Source: Synoicihabitans lomoniglobus (GTDB lineage Bacteria > Verrucomicrobiota > Verrucomicrobiia > Opitutales > Opitutaceae). From it: DNA of 64,000 nt. The stretch covers positions 5,699,501 to 5,763,500 of the forward strand of contig NZ_CP119075.1 in NCBI RefSeq assembly GCF_029023725.1, written 5' to 3'. Made by a program: the position numbers and the translations under genes. The notes under the pieces are model-generated. The model saw nothing but the letters and a program-made list of their open reading frames with translations. It ran no database searches and was not told where the DNA came from. Below are positions 7,392-42,382 of this stretch, piece after piece (position 1 is the stretch's first letter; each line of letters starts with the position of its first letter).

Positions 7392-10043
7392 TCAATCAGA
7401 CCGTAGCGCGACCATGGGATCGACCCGGGAGGCGCGACGGGCCGGCAGGTAGCCGGCCAACAGTGCGCAGCCCAACACCGCGCCGGTCATCACCACATAC
7501 GTGCCAGGGTCGAACGAACTCACCTCGTAGAGCAACGTCTCCATCGCCCGGCCGGTGGCGAGTGCGGCCATGAGCCCTCCCGCGATGCCCGCCAGCGCCA
7601 GGCGCACGGTCCGGCCCACGATCTCGCGGCGGACGACCGAAGCGGTCGCCCCGAGGGCCATGCGAATGCCGATCTCCTTGGTGCGTTGGGCGACGGTGTA
7701 GGAAATCACCCCGTAGAGCCCGAGTGCGGCGAGCCCCAGCGCCATGGCCGCGAAACCGGCGACGAGCGAGGCCATGAGTCGACGCGGAGAGTTGGCATGA
7801 TCGACGAGTGACGTCATCTCACGGGCTTGAGTGAGGGGCAGTGTTGGATCGATGGCGTGCACCGCTGATCGCACGCTCGCCATGAGGGTGTTGAGTGGCA
7901 GGGCAGAGCGGATCATGAGGTCCCAGGAACTGCCGCCGAGGGAACGGGTGGAGAGATACATTTCGTTGCCGGGATTTACTTCGGGACCGCGATGGTGGAC
8001 ATCCTCCGCGATGCCGATCACGCGATAAGGCTGACCATTAACGCTCACAAAACGATCAATCGCGCTTCCCTGCGGCCAGAATCGGCGGGCCAAGGTTTGA
8101 TTGATGATAATGACCGCCTGGTCGCCGCCGTCCGTGCGTCGGAAATCGCGACCGGCGACGAGGCGTGTGCTCATCGCGTCCATGAGTCCGGTGGAGACCA
8201 CGCGTAAATGAGCGCTGGTGAATTCGCGGCGCTCATCGATCTCGGGGTTATCGACGGCGGCCACGCCCCAACTGCGATCGCGTTCCACGGGCAGGCAATC
8301 CGTGAAGCCGACCGCCGTCACGCCGGGTAGAGCGCTCACTTGGTCGACGATACTGTCCAGAACCACGGGTCCGGTTTCATCGTATTGCAGCACATCGATG
8401 CGAACTGCGGTGAGGTTCTCCGGATCATAGCCCAGATCGATTGCCAGCACGTTGTTGAGACTGCGCACGACCAGGCCCGCCGCGATTGCCAAGCCGCACG
8501 CGAGGGCGACTTCGAGCACGACCAGGACCGAACGAGTGCGCGCCAAACCGCGACCGGTCGTGGAGCCGCGTCCCTCTTCCTTCAGTGCGGCAAACCCCGG
8601 CCCGCGGCCAAAGCTCGACCGCCACGCCGGAGCGATGCCGCACAGCAGCGCGGTCGCCACACACAGGGCCAGCGTGAAGCCCAGGGCCGCGCCGTCGAAG
8701 TCCACGCTTTGGAGCAAGGGAATCGCGATGGCCGAACGCACGGACAAGTAGTGAATGAAACCCGCCGCGAGGGCGACGCCGAGGGCCGAGCCGATGGTGA
8801 CGAGCACGCAGCTCTCGGTGAATAACTGCCGCAAGATGCGTCCGTCGCCCGCGCCCAAGGCGGCGCGCAGCGCGAGTTCCTTGCCGCGAGCCGCGCCGCG
8901 AGCGAGCAGCAGCCCGCCGAGGTTGAACGCGACGATCGCCAGCACGAGTCCGGCCGCCACCCAGAGAAAGAGCAGCGGCTGCTTCAGGCCGCCCGCAATG
9001 TGCTCGTGGAGCGAACGGGCGTTGGCGCGATGATACTCGTTGAGGTTGCGTTGCTCCCGGGCCAGCGCCATCGCGACGGCGAGATCGGCGGAGGCCTGCT
9101 CGACCGACACGCCCGGTTTCATGCGACCGATCGGCGCGAGGGTATTGCCCCAATTGCGCCGCTGGTTGTTGACCAGCACGAAGTAGCAATCGATGCGCAC
9201 CGCCGGATAAAAGGTGGAGGCAAAGGCATCCTGCCGGGGCGTGATGCCGAGCACCTGCACCGGCACGTCGTTGATACGCACGATTTGCCCGACGATGCCC
9301 GGGTCGGAGTGAAACCGGCTTTGCCAGAGTTGATGAGTGAGCAGCACGACCGGCGGGCCGTTCTCCACGGCGTCGTCGGCGGTGAACAAACGCCCGCGAT
9401 GCGCGGTCATGCCGAGCATGGGAAACAGCCCGGGCGATACGATGATCGTATTGATTGTTTCGGCGGGTTCGCCGGCACTGGATAGGCGATAGGTCTGGCG
9501 CAGCGAAAATGGATCGAAGACCTCGAGCGCTTCGAGCGTTTGGTTATTTTCCGCCAACGCTTCCCACGTGTCGACCAGGTGAGCGACCGCCGAGAGGTCC
9601 TCGGTCGTCGCGGCTGGGTCGCCGTTGGCGATCAGGAGCATGCGCTCCGAACCGGGGAATGGCAGCGGGCGCAACAGCACGGTGTTGACGAGACTGAACA
9701 CGGTCGTGTTGAGGCCGACGCCGACCGCGATAATTAGTATGGCGATGAAAGTGAATCCGCGTTCGCGGCGCAGCAGGCGCACCGTGTGACGCAGGTCTTG
9801 CCCGAGTTGTTCGAGCAGCGGCAGACCGCGCGTCTCGCGATGGAGTTCACGGGTTTGCTCCACCCCGCCGAGCGCGATGCGGGCGCGGCGGCGGGCCTCG
9901 GTCGGGCCCATGCCCCGGCCGATGTTTTCTTCGGTCAACAGGTCGAGATGATGGGCCAACTCTTCGTCGAGATCGGCGTCGAGTCCGGGTTTGCGAAACA
10001 CCGCGCGGAAGCGGGCGTTGAGACGGTTGAGGAAGGGGCTCAT
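7392..10043 (-). CDS. ADOP-family ABC transporter permease (MacB/FtsX-like)
   Basis: This 883-residue permease begins with a soluble segment (about 1-75) typical of ADOP proteins (EELAHHLDLLTEENIGRGM). It continues with a first membrane helix, a large MacB-type periplasmic domain, three helices, a second periplasmic domain and three C-terminal helices ending PARRASRVDPMVALRSD. That duplicated FtsX architecture defines the acidobacterial duplicated orphan permease group, found without an adjacent ATPase. None is adjacent here either. Its start overlaps the stop of the upstream PadR gene by four bases, so the two are co-regulated. Transport of small molecules or efflux is likely, but no substrate is known. 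Confidence 0.88.
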   Translation of the reverse strand: MSPFLNRLNARFRAVFRKPGLDADLDEELAHHLDLLTEENIGRGMGPTEARRRARIALGGVEQTRELHRETRGLPLLEQLGQDLRHTVRLLRRERGFTFIAILIIAVGVGLNTTVFSLVNTVLLRPLPFPGSERMLLIANGDPAATTEDLSAVAHLVDTWEALAENNQTLEALEVFDPFSLRQTYRLSSAGEPAETINTIIVSPGLFPMLGMTAHRGRLFTADDAVENGPPVVLLTHQLWQSRFHSDPGIVGQIVRINDVPVQVLGITPRQDAFASTFYPAVRIDCYFVLVNNQRRNWGNTLAPIGRMKPGVSVEQASADLAVAMALAREQRNLNEYHRANARSLHEHIAGGLKQPLLFLWVAAGLVLAIVAFNLGGLLLARGAARGKELALRAALGAGDGRILRQLFTESCVLVTIGSALGVALAAGFIHYLSVRSAIAIPLLQSVDFDGAALGFTLALCVATALLCGIAPAWRSSFGRGPGFAALKEEGRGSTTGRGLARTRSVLVVLEVALACGLAIAAGLVVRSLNNVLAIDLGYDPENLTAVRIDVLQYDETGPVVLDSIVDQVSALPGVTAVGFTDCLPVERDRSWGVAAVDNPEIDERREFTSAHLRVVSTGLMDAMSTRLVAGRDFRRTDGGDQAVIIINQTLARRFWPQGSAIDRFVSVNGQPYRVIGIAEDVHHRGPEVNPGNEMYLSTRSLGGSSWDLMIRSALPLNTLMASVRSAVHAIDPTLPLTQAREMTSLVDHANSPRRLMASLVAGFAAMALGLAALGLYGVISYTVAQRTKEIGIRMALGATASVVRREIVGRTVRLALAGIAGGLMAALATGRAMETLLYEVSSFDPGTYVVMTGAVLGCALLAGYLPARRASRVDPMVALRSD

Positions 10044-10399
10044 GGCATCGCCCTCTTGCCGCCGGGCGCGGTGCCCAGAAAGCGGTCCATGACATCGGCG
10101 ACGCGGCGCCAGTTCTTTGCGTCGGCCTCAAGACGTTTGCGACCCCGCGCGGTGATGGCGTAGAACTTGGCGCGGCGGTTGTTGTCGGACGTGCCCCAGT
10201 CGGCGGTGATCCATTTGCCCTGCAACAGGCGCACGAGCGCGGCGTAGATGGTGCCTTGGTTGAGGAGTAGATCACCGTCGCCGACCTGTTCGATGCGGCG
10301 GGCGATGCCGTAACCATGGAGCGGTCCCATAGCGTCGAGAGATTGCAGCACCATGAGGTCGAGAGTGCCTTGGAGGAGATCGAGTTTTTCGGGAGGCAT
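10040..10399 (-). CDS. PadR family transcriptional repressor
   Basis: This 119-residue protein has the PadR winged helix: LLQGTLDLMVLQSL at residues 8-21, HGYGIARRIEQ, then LNQGTIYAALVRLLQGKWI, and the beta-wing ending in YAITARGRKRLEAD. PadR proteins usually repress the neighbouring membrane-protein operon and their own gene. Two identical-architecture inverted repeats lie just upstream (10411-10425 and 10441-10455), fitting autoregulation. The stop overlaps the ADOP permease start. A paralogous PadR/ADOP pair lies at 39393-42382. Confidence 0.92.
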   Translation of the reverse strand: MPPEKLDLLQGTLDLMVLQSLDAMGPLHGYGIARRIEQVGDGDLLLNQGTIYAALVRLLQGKWITADWGTSDNNRRAKFYAITARGRKRLEADAKNWRRVADVMDRFLGTAPGGKRAMP

Positions 10400-10410
10400 G
10401 ATAGCTTACG

Positions 10411-10455
10411 TGTGGTTAAGCCACATGAGTAGGAAACACATGTGGTATGTCCACA
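10411..10455. promoter_or_regulatory. Tandem PadR operators upstream of padR-permease operon
   Basis: Two inverted repeats of form TGTGG-N5-CCACA occur at 10411-10425 (TGTGGTTAAGCCACA) and 10441-10455 (TGTGGTATGTCCACA). Their centres are 30 bp apart, about three helical turns, and the first ends 11 bases from the padR start codon. Identical arms and regular spacing suggest cooperative binding of two PadR dimers. Seen directly; binding protein inferred. Confidence 0.75.
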
Positions 10456-10499
10456 TAAAAAGGCCAATCGCGCCGCGAGCGCGGAAGGGTTGGAGCTGA

Positions 10500-36466: not shown

Positions 36467-39256
36467 ATGATGCGTTCGCTCCGTTCCCTTCGCCCGATCC
36501 TAACTGCTTCCACGGCCTGTGTGCTGTTGGCGGCTTGCGCCACGCGCGCGCCGGAATCCGTGCCAGCATCCACTCCGGTTGCCATGGCCCCGGAGCCAGC
36601 TCCCGTGCACCGCTCCATGGCGCTCACGCCCGCGGAGGCCATCGCCGCTATGGAGCTCAAGCCCGGCTACGGGCTCGAAGTCGTGTTGGCCGAGCCGCAG
36701 GTCGAGGAGCCCGTGATGGTCGCGTTTGATGGCAACGGCACGATGTATGTCGCCGAGATGCGCACTTACATGCAGGACGTCGACGCGACCGGCGAGATGG
36801 TGCCGACCAGTCGAGTCTCGCGCCACGAGGATACCGATGGCGACGGCGTCTACGACCGTCACACGATCTTTGCCGACGGCCTGCTGTTGCCGCGCACGTT
36901 GCTCACGCTCGAAAACGAAGTCGTGATCGGCGAAACCAACACGCTCGATCTCTACGTCTACGAGGACACCGATGGCGACGGCGTGGCTGACACGAAGAAG
37001 CCGTGGTTTCGCGGTGGTCCGCGCGGGGGCAATCTCGAGCACCAGCCCAACGGCCTGACGTGGGCGTTGGACAACGGACTTTACGCGACCTTCAACGACT
37101 TTCGTCTGCGCTACACGAATGGCACGGTCGTGCGCGAAAATATTCCGGTCAACGGCGGCCAGTGGGGTCTCACCCAGGACGACTGGGGCAAGGTCTGGTT
37201 TGTGCATGCCGGGGCCGAGACGGGGCCCGAACATTTCCAGCAACACATCATCTACGGCCAGTTCCGCTCCCCCGAAGAACACATCGGCGACTACAAGATC
37301 GTGTGGCCGATCGACAACATTCCGGATACCCAGGGCGGCCCCGGTCAGCTGCGGCCCGACAACACCCTGAACCATTTCACCGCCACGTGCGGCCAGGATA
37401 TTTTCCGGGGTGATCGACTGCCCGTCGACCTGCGCGGCGACCTGTTGTTTGCCGAACCGGTCGGACGGTTGATTCGACGCACCGAGATCACGTCCGACGA
37501 CGGCATTGTTAAACTGGCCAACCCTTATGAAGCCGCCCACGGCGAATTCATGCGCACGCGTGATCCGTTGTTCCGTCCGGTCAACATGGTCACCGCGCCC
37601 GACGGCACGCTCTACGTGGTCGATATGTATCGAGGCATCATCCAGGAGGGCAACTGGACTCGCGAAGGCACTTACCTCCGCGAGCAAATCGTGAAGCATG
37701 GCCTCGATCGCGAGATCGGCCGCGGCCGCATTTATCGCGTGCGTCACGACGACTTCACGCCCGGTCCGCAGCCGCGCATGCTCGAGGAAACGTCGGCGCA
37801 ACTTGTCGCGCATTTTTCACATCCCAACGGTTGGTGGCGCGACACCGCGCAAAAGCTTCTCATCCTGCGCGGCGACCATGCGGTCGTGCCGGCGCTGACC
37901 GATCTCGCCGCTGGTCGCACCACGACCAACCCGCTCGCCCGCAGCCATGCGCTGTGGACGCTCGAAGGTCTCGATGCCCTCACGCCCGAGTTGGTGCAAG
38001 GCGCGCTCGCCTCTGATCACCCCGGTCTGCGCCGCATGGGATTGCGCCTCGCGGAGGGTTGGTTGCTGCCAGCCGAGGGCGGAAACACCGCACCTTTACC
38101 CGTCGACGAAGAAGCGCGATCTGCTCCGGCGGTCATCGCGGACGCCGACCGGACGCCTGCGACGGTGATTCGTCCGGCGGCGGGCATCGGGGCGGCCGAT
38201 GTCGCGTCGCTGCGCGCGGGCATGCAGGCGGCGTTGCAGGACTCCGATCCCGAAGTCGTCGTCCAAGCGATGGTCTCGCTCAACCGCGTCGGTGGCGACG
38301 ATGTCGAATCGCTGATTCAAAGCGCGGCGGAGGCGTCGACGTCCGCCGGCGTTTATAGTATCAACGAACAACTTTGGCAAAAGGGCGCGGACGAAGATCC
38401 GTTTCTCATGGTGCAACTCGGCGCCGCCGGGCTGAAGTCCTACCGTGAGGGCAAAAAGATTTATGACTCGTTGTGCTTTTCCTGCCACGGCCCCGATGGG
38501 CTGGGGGTGGCCGTGAACGAGGAGCGCAAGCTTGCGCCACCGCTGACGGATTCGGCGCGGGTGCTCGGCAGCGAAGGCGCGATCATCGACATCGTATTGC
38601 ACGGATTGCAGGGCGACGTCGATGGCGTCGACTACGGCGCACCGATGATTCCGATGAATTCCTATTCCGACGCGGAACTCGCGAGTGTGTTGACCTACAT
38701 CCGCAACAGCTTCGGCAACCGCGGCAGTGTGGTCGAAGCCGACACGGTGGCGACGCATCGGAAGCGTGGCGCGGCGCGCACGGCGTTTTGGACGATGGCG
38801 GAACTCGAGCAGTCCTATCCGGTGCTCACCGTGCCGCGGGAGCGCTTCGTGAAACGCGATCAATGGAAGCTCACCAACGGCGAACCCTTGCAGGAGGGCA
38901 GCCAGCTCACCCACGCGATTGACGACAGCTTGGAGACTGGCTTTGCGACCGCCAAAGTTGCGCCGTTTCCGGGGCAGTGGTTGGTCATCGAACTCCCGGC
39001 GAAGAGCACCATCACGTCCATTGTGATGGATGCCACCGGCGACGAAGAATCTTACGCGCCGGGTTATGACGTGCAGATCTCCACTGACGGTCAGTCATGG
39101 GGCGAACCCGTGGTTAAAGCCATCGGGGAAGTGAAAGCGCGGCTGCACCTGGCGAAGCCGATCGAAGCCAAGTGGCTGCGCCTGACGGTGAACCACAAAG
39201 ACGGCTGGCAACGTTGGGTGATCAACAACCTCGAACTCTACGGCGACGAAGGCTGA
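36467..39256 (+). CDS. PVC-type haem-binding CxxCH protein (secreted lipoprotein)
   Basis: This 929-residue protein begins with a lipoprotein signal (ACVLLAACATRAPES; lipobox LAAC near residue 23). A beta-propeller of the membrane-bound dehydrogenase type follows (residues 60-430; GNGTMYVAEMRTYM, DTDGDGVYDRHTIFADGL), then HEAT-like helices. A cytochrome c domain comes next with CFSCHGPDGLG (CxxCH at about residue 669), and a C-terminal discoidin-like domain. This layout is nearly restricted to Planctomycetes and Verrucomicrobia. It likely oxidises sugars or other substrates at the cell surface; donor and acceptor unknown. Confidence 0.88.
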   Translation: MMRSLRSLRPILTASTACVLLAACATRAPESVPASTPVAMAPEPAPVHRSMALTPAEAIAAMELKPGYGLEVVLAEPQVEEPVMVAFDGNGTMYVAEMRTYMQDVDATGEMVPTSRVSRHEDTDGDGVYDRHTIFADGLLLPRTLLTLENEVVIGETNTLDLYVYEDTDGDGVADTKKPWFRGGPRGGNLEHQPNGLTWALDNGLYATFNDFRLRYTNGTVVRENIPVNGGQWGLTQDDWGKVWFVHAGAETGPEHFQQHIIYGQFRSPEEHIGDYKIVWPIDNIPDTQGGPGQLRPDNTLNHFTATCGQDIFRGDRLPVDLRGDLLFAEPVGRLIRRTEITSDDGIVKLANPYEAAHGEFMRTRDPLFRPVNMVTAPDGTLYVVDMYRGIIQEGNWTREGTYLREQIVKHGLDREIGRGRIYRVRHDDFTPGPQPRMLEETSAQLVAHFSHPNGWWRDTAQKLLILRGDHAVVPALTDLAAGRTTTNPLARSHALWTLEGLDALTPELVQGALASDHPGLRRMGLRLAEGWLLPAEGGNTAPLPVDEEARSAPAVIADADRTPATVIRPAAGIGAADVASLRAGMQAALQDSDPEVVVQAMVSLNRVGGDDVESLIQSAAEASTSAGVYSINEQLWQKGADEDPFLMVQLGAAGLKSYREGKKIYDSLCFSCHGPDGLGVAVNEERKLAPPLTDSARVLGSEGAIIDIVLHGLQGDVDGVDYGAPMIPMNSYSDAELASVLTYIRNSFGNRGSVVEADTVATHRKRGAARTAFWTMAELEQSYPVLTVPRERFVKRDQWKLTNGEPLQEGSQLTHAIDDSLETGFATAKVAPFPGQWLVIELPAKSTITSIVMDATGDEESYAPGYDVQISTDGQSWGEPVVKAIGEVKARLHLAKPIEAKWLRLTVNHKDGWQRWVINNLELYGDEG

Positions 39257-39329
39257 GCCCGTAGCTGGCGACGTTCCGACTCATTCACTCCGGCGGATGG
39301 CTGGGAGCGTTCGAGGTGCGGCGGGTGTC

Positions 39330-39394
39330 ATACCTCGGGTGTCTACCTATAATACCTTGACAGTCGACCTATAATGCCTCGGCATTCGAGGTAT
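39330..39394. promoter_or_regulatory. 22-bp periodic half-sites and palindrome before padR-2
   Basis: Half-sites ATACCTCG (39330), ATACCTTG (39352) and ATGCCTCG (39374) are spaced exactly 22 bp apart, and CGAGGTAT (39387-39394) closes a palindrome CCTCG-GCATT-CGAGG that overlaps the PadR start codon. Two TATAAT boxes (39348 and 39370) lie inside the repeats. The pattern suggests PadR binding over the promoter; the transcript may have a very short or no leader. Confidence 0.65.
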
Positions 39395-39731
39395 GAAGCG
39401 ATTGCAGACGTCGTTGTTACAGGGCACGCTGGATTTGATGGTGTTGCGGGTGGTGAGTGCCGGTCCGCGTCACGGTTATGATATCGCGAAGCGCATCGAG
39501 GTATTGTCCCGGGATATCCTGAGCATCGGCCAAGGGTCACTGTATCCGGCGCTGCATCGGCTGGAAGAGCGGGGGTTCGTCAAAGCGACTTGGAAGATGA
39601 GTGAGACGGGTCGGCGGGCGCGCTTCTACGCCTTGACTGCGGCGGGCAAGCGGGAGTTGACCGCGAGTGAGGACTATTGGCGGGCATTTAGCACGGCGGT
39701 GGAGCACGTGCTGAAAGGAGCGGACGCGTGA
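39393..39731 (+). CDS. PadR family transcriptional repressor (second copy)
   Basis: This 112-residue protein has the PadR winged helix: LLQGTLDLMVLRVV (residues 8-21), HGYDIAKRIEVL, IGQGSLYPALHRLEERGFV and YALTAAGKRELTASE. Similar to the PadR at 10040 but with different upstream sites, so the two regulators probably recognise different operators. The ATG at 39393 is only a base or two after GAGG, so ribosome-site spacing is unusual and the mRNA may be nearly leaderless. The GTG start of the next gene overlaps the PadR stop by four bases. Confidence 0.9.
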   Translation: MKRLQTSLLQGTLDLMVLRVVSAGPRHGYDIAKRIEVLSRDILSIGQGSLYPALHRLEERGFVKATWKMSETGRRARFYALTAAGKRELTASEDYWRAFSTAVEHVLKGADA

Positions 39732-42382
39732 GGGGGCTGCGCACGCTGTGGCGATGGTTGACGGCGGGGTGGCGGCAACGCTCCCGCGAGGGGGATTTGG
39801 CAGAGGAAATGGCGCACCACGTCGGCGAGTTGGAGCAGGATCATCGGCGGCGCGGTTTGACGGCGGAGAAAGCGCGCTGGGCGGCCCGGCGTGACTTCGG
39901 GGTGGCGCAAGATGCCTTTGCCGAAGAAGCCCGGGAAGCGTGGGCGGGCAGGCGCACCTTGGAGCTCGGTCGCGACGTGCGTTTTGGCTGGCGCATGATG
40001 CGCAAACACCGGGCGCTGACATTCGCGGTGGTGCTGACGTTGGGACTTTGTCTGGGCGGAAATACGGCGATTCTGGCGGTCTTGAATCAGCTGGTGCTGC
40101 GGCCGCCGCCCTTTCCGGAACCTGATCGTTTGGTGGAAGTTTATAGTGGTTACGCGGGATCGGGCATCGTCGATGCCGGCAGCAATGCCTACCGACTGCG
40201 GCGCATGAGCGAGTTGGCGGATGTGCAGGAAGGGGCCGCGTTGTGGAACGAGGAGTGGCGGATTGCGCGGTGGGACGAAGCCTCGCGCCAATTGAAAGGG
40301 TGGTGGGCCTCGGCCGGTGTGATGAAAACGGTGGGGCTGGTGCAACGGCGAGGCCGGGGCTTTGAGCCGGGCGAAGAGCGGGCGGTGTTGTTGGCCGAGA
40401 CGTTTTGGCAGGACGTGATGAATGGCCGCGAAGATGCGGTGGGTGGTGGTTTCGTGATTCAAGGCGAAGCGCATACGGTGGTGGGCGTGGTGGCGGGATT
40501 GCCGGCGGATGTCGCTTACGTGCGGGTGCGCCAATGGACCGAAGCGGAGTATCAGGGAACCGACTACGATGGGCGGCACGATCGTTTGGGCCGACTGTGG
40601 TTACGATTGGCTCCGGGAGTGTCGCTGGCGCAGTTGCGGGCGCGGATCGAGGCCCTGGACGCGCGGGAACTTGCGGCCGGATCGGCGGCGGATCGGGCGC
40701 GAGCGCAGCAGGAGGGATTTGCCACACGGGCGGATCGACTGGCCGACGTGCGCAATCGGGAATTGCGGCCTCGGCTCTATTTGCTGCAAGCGGCCGGTTT
40801 ACTGGTATTGCTGATCGGGGCGGTGAATATTGCCGGGTTGTTGACGGCGCGGGCCAACGCGCGGCGGGAAGAGCTGGCAACCCGCGTGGCCTTGGGGGCG
40901 ACACGCGGACGCTTGGTGCAGCAATGGACCACGGAGAGCGTGCTTTTGGCGGTCGCCGGTTGGGCGTGTGGCATCGGTGTCGCCGGCGTGATGTTGCGAT
41001 ATTACCCGCAGTGGACCGGGGCGACGGCGGAGGCAGATGTGGCGACGTTGTTGCCGCCGGGGGTGGTGGTCGCGTCGCTGGGACTGGCTTTGGTGACGGC
41101 GTTGTTTCTGGGGCTGATGACCGGCACACAAGTGGCGGCCATGCATGGTCGAGTTTCCACGCCAGGCGTGGCGCGCGGCGGCACCCCGACCAAAGCGTTG
41201 CGGCGATTGGGTGGACGATTGGCCTCGGCGCAGACCGCGGTGGCAGTGGTGCTGCTCGGGGCCGCGGGGATGTTGTGGCAAAGTTATGCGCAGGTGATCG
41301 GGCGGGAACTCGGGTATGCCGCGGACGAGTTGGTCATGATGCGGGTGCTGCTGCCGGAGGACCGTTACGCGGAGGCGGCCGACAAGGATGCGTTTGCGGA
41401 ACGTTTGGAGCGCACCTTGGCGGCCATTCCCGGAGTTGAGGGCGTGGCGCGCACGAGTTTTGTGCCGACGTTTGGGCATCCGGACATGGCCCTGCATGTG
41501 GCGGGTCGCGAAGCGGGGGAGGCGGGGCTCGGTCGCGTCGCGTTTACGCAGGTGAGCCCGGACTATTTTGCGACGATGGAAATACCGATACTGCAGGGTA
41601 GAGGTATCGAAGATGGGGATACGGCATGGTGGCGCGAGGCGGTCGTGATTGACCGGCGCTTGGCGCGCAGTGTGTTCGGCGACGGGGAAGCGGTGGGCCA
41701 ACGGATCCGGTTGGGAGCGAATCCCCGCAATCCCAACGCTTGGCCGGTGGTGGTGGGCGTGGCGGCGGAAGTGCGGCACGGCGGGTGGGACGAAGCCGAC
41801 GGTTTGCCCATGGTTTATCGACCCATCGCGGAGAGCGGTGGCGCGGAGTTCAGTGTGGTGCTGCGCACGCCGCGCGATCCGGCGGAGCTGTTGGCGGTCG
41901 TGCGCACGGCGGTGCAGGAGCTTGATCCCCAGGTGCCGGTGTTTCGGTTGGGCTCGATGGAAGCGTTTTTGGCGGAATCGGTGCAACCCCGGTTGACCCT
42001 GCTCAATATCATCGGCGCGTTCGCCGTGATTGCGTTGGGTCTCACGACGCTGGGCGTCGCGGGCATCCTGTTTTTTGATGTGGGATCGCGGACGCGGGAG
42101 CTCGGGATTCGCCTCGCCCTCGGGGCGGATCGCGGGGCGGTCCAGCGGTTGGTCGTGCGCCAAGCCCTGACGCGAGTCGCTTGGGGCGTGGCGATCGGTT
42201 TGCCCGGGCTTTATGCGGCGGGCATGGTGATGAGAGGGGTGTTATTCGATGCCTCCGCTCCGCAGGTATTGGTCTACGGAGTCGTGGTCGCGGCGATGGG
42301 AATAGTCGGACTCGTGGCTGGATACTTTCCCGCCCGACGCGCCGTCAAAGTGGATCCGGTCGAGGCGCTGCGCGCGGGTTAA
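39728..42382 (+). CDS. ADOP-family ABC transporter permease (second copy)
   Basis: This 884-residue protein starts at GTG 39728 and has the same architecture as the 7392-10043 permease: soluble N-terminus with EEMAHHVGELEQDHRRRGLT, helix near 90-115, MacB-like periplasmic domain, three helices, second periplasmic domain and three terminal helices ending in FPARRAVKVDPVEALRAG. No ATPase gene is adjacent. Sequence differs enough from the first copy to suggest distinct cargo. Control by the overlapping PadR gene is likely. Confidence 0.88.
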   Translation: MRGLRTLWRWLTAGWRQRSREGDLAEEMAHHVGELEQDHRRRGLTAEKARWAARRDFGVAQDAFAEEAREAWAGRRTLELGRDVRFGWRMMRKHRALTFAVVLTLGLCLGGNTAILAVLNQLVLRPPPFPEPDRLVEVYSGYAGSGIVDAGSNAYRLRRMSELADVQEGAALWNEEWRIARWDEASRQLKGWWASAGVMKTVGLVQRRGRGFEPGEERAVLLAETFWQDVMNGREDAVGGGFVIQGEAHTVVGVVAGLPADVAYVRVRQWTEAEYQGTDYDGRHDRLGRLWLRLAPGVSLAQLRARIEALDARELAAGSAADRARAQQEGFATRADRLADVRNRELRPRLYLLQAAGLLVLLIGAVNIAGLLTARANARREELATRVALGATRGRLVQQWTTESVLLAVAGWACGIGVAGVMLRYYPQWTGATAEADVATLLPPGVVVASLGLALVTALFLGLMTGTQVAAMHGRVSTPGVARGGTPTKALRRLGGRLASAQTAVAVVLLGAAGMLWQSYAQVIGRELGYAADELVMMRVLLPEDRYAEAADKDAFAERLERTLAAIPGVEGVARTSFVPTFGHPDMALHVAGREAGEAGLGRVAFTQVSPDYFATMEIPILQGRGIEDGDTAWWREAVVIDRRLARSVFGDGEAVGQRIRLGANPRNPNAWPVVVGVAAEVRHGGWDEADGLPMVYRPIAESGGAEFSVVLRTPRDPAELLAVVRTAVQELDPQVPVFRLGSMEAFLAESVQPRLTLLNIIGAFAVIALGLTTLGVAGILFFDVGSRTRELGIRLALGADRGAVQRLVVRQALTRVAWGVAIGLPGLYAAGMVMRGVLFDASAPQVLVYGVVVAAMGIVGLVAGYFPARRAVKVDPVEALRAG

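Follow-up and report, generated by a model that had tools for sequence, protein, structure and literature searches.

A 22-bp-spaced array upstream of a padR-permease gene pair in Synoicihabitans lomoniglobus as a probable autorepressor operator reaching into the start codon

Operators of the PadR-s2 group contain an inverted ATGT/ACAT motif with a spacer of ~8-10 nt (PMC3506622). Within the PadR family, LmrR represses its own gene, several dimers binding its promoter (PMC4534193), and in LftR two tyrosines have been described as signature residues for DNA binding (PMC6457526). The acuR-acuI-dddL operon of Rhodobacter sphaeroides provides a leaderless, repressor-first arrangement (PMC3017554), and some Verrucomicrobia are listed as Shine-Dalgarno-poor (PMC10783764). 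For the operators of padR genes of the TIGR03433 type, no study was found among listings of the open-licence literature, and the full permease name appeared there in one paper, on Dyadobacter species. The matter is of some weight, because some genomes contain dozens of TIGR03433 matches (33 in genome G078 and 25 in genome G057), yet no operator study was found in that literature.

The window analyzed here is a stretch of 64,000 nucleotides (positions 5,699,501-5,763,500) from the single-contig 5.93-Mb genome of S. lomoniglobus. The gene under study, padR (39393-39731, forward strand), encodes a protein of 112 residues that scores 135.2 bits against NCBIfam TIGR03433 (padR_acidobact), above the curated cut-off of 101.8, and 82.4 bits against Pfam PadR. 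On the same strand, it is followed by a gene for a duplicated FtsX/MacB_PCD permease (39728-42382). This protein contains FtsX and MacB_PCD domains, but its score of 579.5 bits against TIGR03434 (ADOP) lies below the curated cut-off of 622.3, and it is therefore termed ADOP-like only. The GTG start of the permease gene overlaps the padR stop by 4 nt (GTGA, 39728-39731), which suggests coupled translation. The genome contains nine PadR matches, of which two fall in the window. A sequence search of the PDB with the PadR protein returned 48 distinct sequences at E 0.001 or better, the best being 1xma, and in our reading Tyr29 and Tyr51 of the focal protein correspond to the signature tyrosines of LftR.

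Three abutting 22-bp units occupy positions 39330-39395 of the forward strand, spanning -63 to +3 with respect to the padR ATG (39393-39395). Unit 1 (39330-39350, centre 39340; ATACCTCGGGTGTCTACCTATA) is an extra upstream copy, unit 2 (39352-39372, centre 39362; ATACCTTGACAGTCGACCTATA) contains the hexamer TTGACA at 39357-39362, and unit 3 (39374-39394, centre 39384; ATGCCTCGGCATTCGAGGTATG) reaches into the start codon. The initial annotation had described ATRCCTyG half-sites recurring every 22 bp, and the periodicity was confirmed for all three units. The three-copy score of the array, 32 of 44, was the window maximum; 22 was the sole period among those scanned (10-40) to attain 32 anywhere, and none of 300 dinucleotide shuffles of 39257-39395 reached this value. 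Self-matching at a lag of 22 amounted to 35 of 49 positions (39326-39396), with every other lag from 5 to 35 giving 20 or fewer. The strict pattern ATRCCTYG-N5/6-CNANSTAT matched three times in the 5.93-Mb genome, each time within the array (reversed control, 0), and no other array of this type turned up genome-wide. A looser dyad search of the genome, allowing up to three mismatches, yielded five further dyads; these were discarded as candidate targets, because each sits within an open frame of 435 codons or more and is probably a chance match.

Each unit is a degenerate dyad in which half-sites of approximately ATANNTYGA flank a 3-bp centre. The symmetry is weak, with 5, 7 and 7 of 10 positions pairing in units 1, 2 and 3, respectively. 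As a bare palindrome, unit 3 is ordinary, since 334 window positions equal or beat its seven pairs. A 43-bp palindrome centred at 39373 pairs at 14 of 21 positions and is among the 12 window positions that score that well or better, of which 39351, 39373 and 10433 fall in the two padR operators. Given that a 21-bp dyad of this quality is ordinary, symmetry alone was dropped as evidence for an operator, and the case for the units is built on their periodicity and on the relatives described below. A closing palindrome had also been reported to cover the ATG; the dyad at 39374-39394 does include the A and the T, but the G lies outside it. Units 1 and 2 are identical at 17 of 22 positions and both carry ACCTAT where symmetry would want AGGTAT; unit 1 thus probably arose by duplication of unit 2.

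Set against the described systems, the locus shares with LmrR and the PadR-s2 group a small PadR protein and dyad arms 9 nt apart, the LmrR promoter being bound by several dimers (PMC3506622 and PMC4534193). It departs from them in that the arms are of the ACCT/AGGT type (GCCT-N9-AGGT in unit 3) rather than the canonical ATGT/ACAT with a spacer of 8-10, the units follow one another directly at 22 bp and extend into the start codon, and the neighboring gene encodes an ADOP-like permease rather than LmrCD. Dyads of the form ATGT-N9-ACAT are present in some relatives (e.g. L016 and L129). Like acuR-acuI-dddL, this is a repressor-first operon with the operator over the promoter, and the acuR system has no leader; unlike it, the repressor is not of the TetR family, the operator contains more than one dyad, and the leaderless start, which was mapped in R. 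sphaeroides, is only a proposed one here (PMC3017554). Other TIGR03433-type padR promoters of Acidobacteriota, Gemmatimonadota and Opitutaceae that were collected here also have two dyads, usually with TTGACA in the left one and with the right one shortly before the ATG. In contrast to the focal promoter, their commonest spacing is 30-36 bp, which leaves room for a -10 element after TTGACA.

Comparison loci were collected by a protein search of 150 family genomes (up to 30 loci), by a contig scan (80 loci of at least 580 found) and by two profile searches of 252 and 372 genomes, which are overlapping sets. The layout of the focal operator, with dyads 22 bp apart and the ATG ending the last dyad, recurs as abutting 22-bp dyads in 12 relatives (L010, L011, L012, L013, L014, L016, L043 = L136, L129, L130, L133, L135 and L137). 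These come from eight genomes, and because G078 contributes three and G057 and G310 two each, some of them are paralogues. The relatives keep two units, spaced from the ATG as in the focal gene, and the padR ATG closes the last unit as its final three bases in 12 of 13 operators, the exception being L014. There, as in L042, which has an identical PadR protein, the ATG at the operator end begins a frame of 12 codons, possibly a small upstream coding frame, and the TGA of this frame shares bases with the padR ATG (ATGA). No third unit was found in the relatives; at -53, the 11 that were scored gave -21 or lower, and L135 was judged by reading.

A matrix built from 11 of these operators, with the focal one left out and L135 used in no matrix or tree, was applied to 63,979 window positions. 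Unit 2 ranked first (20.8), unit 3 second (19.3) and unit 1 third (12.3), ahead of a next best score of 10.6. When each of 12 operators was left out in turn, every one scored at least 14.4 at both units. In a column profile of 12 operators, in which the L010 row is off register by 22, columns -45 to -13 held no more than 0.40 bits, and 20 of the 23 columns from -12 to +10 held at least 0.78 bits. Units 2 and 3 are kept among relatives whose proteins, for the six compared, are 50-59% identical to the focal PadR. The L043 operator forms a 43-bp palindrome without mismatch (pairing was scored at 19 cross-arm positions, all of which pair, and the outer two pair by reading). A focal-like permease lies downstream in 10 of the 11 relatives tested, with a weak match for L013 (E 8e-6) and none for L010 at E 1e-5. 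The layout accompanied 10 of 13 clade-profile matches at E 1e-42 or better in the 252-genome search (L131, L132 and L134 being without it) and 8 of 8 matches in the 372-genome search.

The wider family was surveyed in 112 distinct TIGR03433-type promoters, using raw best scores of which some are off register (e.g. L063 and L071); protein duplicates and L091 were left out, and L032 was not found. The two dyads are 30-36 bp apart in 63 promoters and 22 bp apart in nine (eight clade members and L023), and across the family TTGACA usually stands at a fixed place in the left dyad. For the position of a -10 element after TTGACA, 102 of the 112 promoters could be aligned and 70 non-clade rows passed a strict rule. 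Among these 70, TAnnnT occurred 19 times over the four spacers 16-19, once over the six spacers 9-14 and 18 times over the ten spacers 20-29; because of this last group, a usual -10 element at spacers 16-19 is favored but not proved. In the eight clade members, the corresponding counts were none at spacers 16-19 and six at spacer 7, which is the junction box discussed below. The focal clade would represent a shortened form of the wider 30-36 bp layout, and the focal operator is best read as a two-turn variant of it. Two promoters with comparable features were observed elsewhere: that of L049 (a PadR from uncultured Acidobacteria, not a clade member) bears a palindrome with 23-bp spacing which, possibly by convergence, likewise terminates on the ATG, and the operator of L005, a paralogue in the focal genome, has a spacing of 25 and also extends into its start codon.

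In a tree of 118 PadR proteins, the 12 sampled clade members grouped on the same side of a single branch (SH-aLRT 90). When paralogues from G078 and G057 were added (49 of 55 fetched loci gave a usable gene), the resulting tree of 160 proteins placed four more inside the clade (L153, L161, L176 and L186) with a support of 88. Both trees are based on 111 columns, and many of their forks are poorly separated. L161, L176 and L186 have a spacing of 27-29 with the ATG still at the dyad end, and L153 has no clear two-dyad site. The notion that the layout is exclusive to the clade was abandoned on this evidence; the layout is neither exclusive nor obligatory there. Of all protein columns, residue 46, which precedes QGSLYP just ahead of the recognition helix, was the one most strongly associated with base three of the TCNA arm (100 of 118 promoters). 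Glycine was paired with G in 31 of 31 cases, glutamine with T in 21 of 22 and glutamate with T in 15 of 17, with asparagine and lysine mixed. Correction for the tree left three independent pairs, none against the association and too few for a test, so residue 46 is treated as a lead only. Together, the collected promoters suggest a testable operator code consisting of layout, half-site and perhaps a residue that keeps paralogues apart.

The most likely verdict on these data is that the array is a real operator and that it serves autorepression. As a specific statement, we consider it highly probable that the array serves the padR-permease operon as its autorepressor operator, lying over the core promoter and the start codon. 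This assignment is drawn from the window-topping periodicity absent from the shuffles, the top three ranks given to the focal units by a matrix derived from 11 other operators, the layout common to 13 operators, 12 of them sampled on one tree branch, the confinement of the strict pattern to this array, the pairing of residue 46 with an operator base (glycine with G throughout) and the precedent of LmrR, a PadR protein that represses its own gene with several dimers on the promoter. It is weakened by the poor symmetry of the focal units and by a layout that is neither exclusive nor obligatory. One PadR dimer would bind each unit, and with 22 bp corresponding to 2.1 turns, the dimers would be placed on nearly the same helix face. 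Dimers in place there would mask the -10 boxes together with the transcript start and the start codon, so that padR and the permease gene would be shut off until a ligand releases the repressor.

The transcript start bears on how this operator would work. TATAAT boxes had been placed within the repeats, correctly, at 39348-39353 and 39370-39375; boxes of this kind sit where the outer TAT and AT of neighboring units join. The upstream box belongs to a promoter candidate, P1 (GTGTCA-N17-TATAAT, 39325-39353, forward strand), with 10 of 12 matching positions, a predicted start near 39360 and a leader of ~33 nt. It is the only sigma-70-like match in 39150-39480 (shuffle mean, 0.1). The box at the junction of units 2 and 3 is a -10 candidate that would give a leader of ~11 nt; its best -35 element matches at only three of six positions with a spacer of 15, and TTGACA at 39357-39362 was rejected in that role because a 7-nt spacer is not promoter spacing. 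The nearly leaderless start proposed in the initial annotation was thus not established for the focal gene, for which P1 is the best match, although the position of the junction box is common to relatives. We would put at somewhat less than even the chance that the message is nearly leaderless, either from the junction box or from TTGACA at 39357 with a -10 element inside unit 3 and transcription beginning on the ATG or beside it, so that operator and start codon form one element. Nine of the 13 operators, the focal one included, have a TATNAT whose first base lies 23 nt ahead of the ATG (L130 and L133 have none at the junction); in L137, TTGACA-N16-TAGAAT (11 of 12) would start transcription within ~3 nt of the ATG; L010 and L016, by reading, lack a Shine-Dalgarno sequence ahead of theirs; and acuR offers a precedent of an mRNA starting at its AUG (PMC3017554). 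The lack of TAnnnT at spacers 16-19 in the eight clade members counted above and the L014 operator-end ATG, which is not the padR start, speak against such a start. This reading concerns the transcript start and can be compatible with an autorepressor operator. A role of unit 3 mainly in RNA, where a hairpin in a long transcript would close over the start codon and control translation, appears very unlikely: RNA 39360-39430 does fold unit 3 into eight pairs that include the A and U of the AUG, but any DNA dyad yields such a hairpin, folding of the stretch as a whole does not surpass that of shuffled sequences (z -1.06; 30 of 200 shuffles equal or exceed it), and the hairpin is absent from RNA starting at 39382. 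That the array is a functionless product of chance or slippage is hardly credible, since units 2 and 3 persist among the diverged relatives, even though units 1 and 2 do resemble a tandem duplication.

A further alternative is that the focal array is bound in addition by a different PadR paralogue or by some unrelated regulator, and one candidate is the product of the first padR of the window (10040-10399, reverse strand). Its operator (10408-10458, reverse strand) has two dyads centred at 10448 and 10418, 30 bp apart, with half-sites of the ATGTGG type, and the two proteins share 48 identical residues over 112 aligned positions. The claim that the two operators differ held up: a focal matrix from six half-sites scored the dyads of the first operator at 0.9 and -7.8 (window ranks 499 and 8736) as against 21.8-23.2 for its own units, and a matrix from the four half-sites of the first operator scored the focal units at 2.3, 3.9 and -2.1 (ranks 481, 229 and 2851) as against 21.7 for its own two, both matrices being in-sample and each scoring the other's sites ~18 bits or more lower. 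The accompanying claim that the paralogues should not cross-regulate is favored by these in-sample scores but received a qualification from the relatives-only matrix, which gave the first operator 3.9 (rank 9 of 63,979) and -6.6 (rank 148), far below the focal units but not plain background. The ninth rank is probably explained by the ATGT-type arms that some relatives share with the first PadR, and weak cross-binding would be possible. Many paralogous operators also have a common core in the register T-N-G-A-N3-T-C-N-A, and comparison of the focal operator with the first over 18 positions gives 10 agreements, against a random 95th percentile of 9. Against this stands the observation that in relatives the layout is found before the adjacent padR, and binding of the focal array by a second regulator is on balance improbable. 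Separate operators are therefore favored for this pair, as judged from the DNA. Other pairs in the genome agree more closely (L005 and the first PadR, 14 of 18; L002 and L007, 15; L006 and L008, 17), so that separate operators are no rule among paralogues, and some of these may cross-talk; L006 and L008, which lie outside the window, may cross-regulate.

Returning to autorepression, the focal clade presents a natural case of merged operator, promoter and start codon. A joint reading of the observations, which we regard as rather unlikely in its full form, is that one element does three jobs in this clade: the dyads would bind PadR, the dyad junction would be the -10 element, and the start codon would be made up of the bases at the outer end of the last dyad. 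The promoter would have been rebuilt when the distance between the dyads shrank by approximately one helical turn relative to most of the family, and TTGACA, the former -35 hexamer, would have been kept purely as part of the operator. Transcripts that start from the junction box would be short and have a free start codon, and longer ones would fold the last dyad over it, such that mainly promoter-proximal, nearly leaderless messages would make the repressor.

In G078, 26 of the 33 TIGR03433 matches of the genome lie within ~120 kb of one contig (C10, ~94,000-214,500), many of them ~3 kb apart, as if padR-permease pairs had been tandemly amplified.
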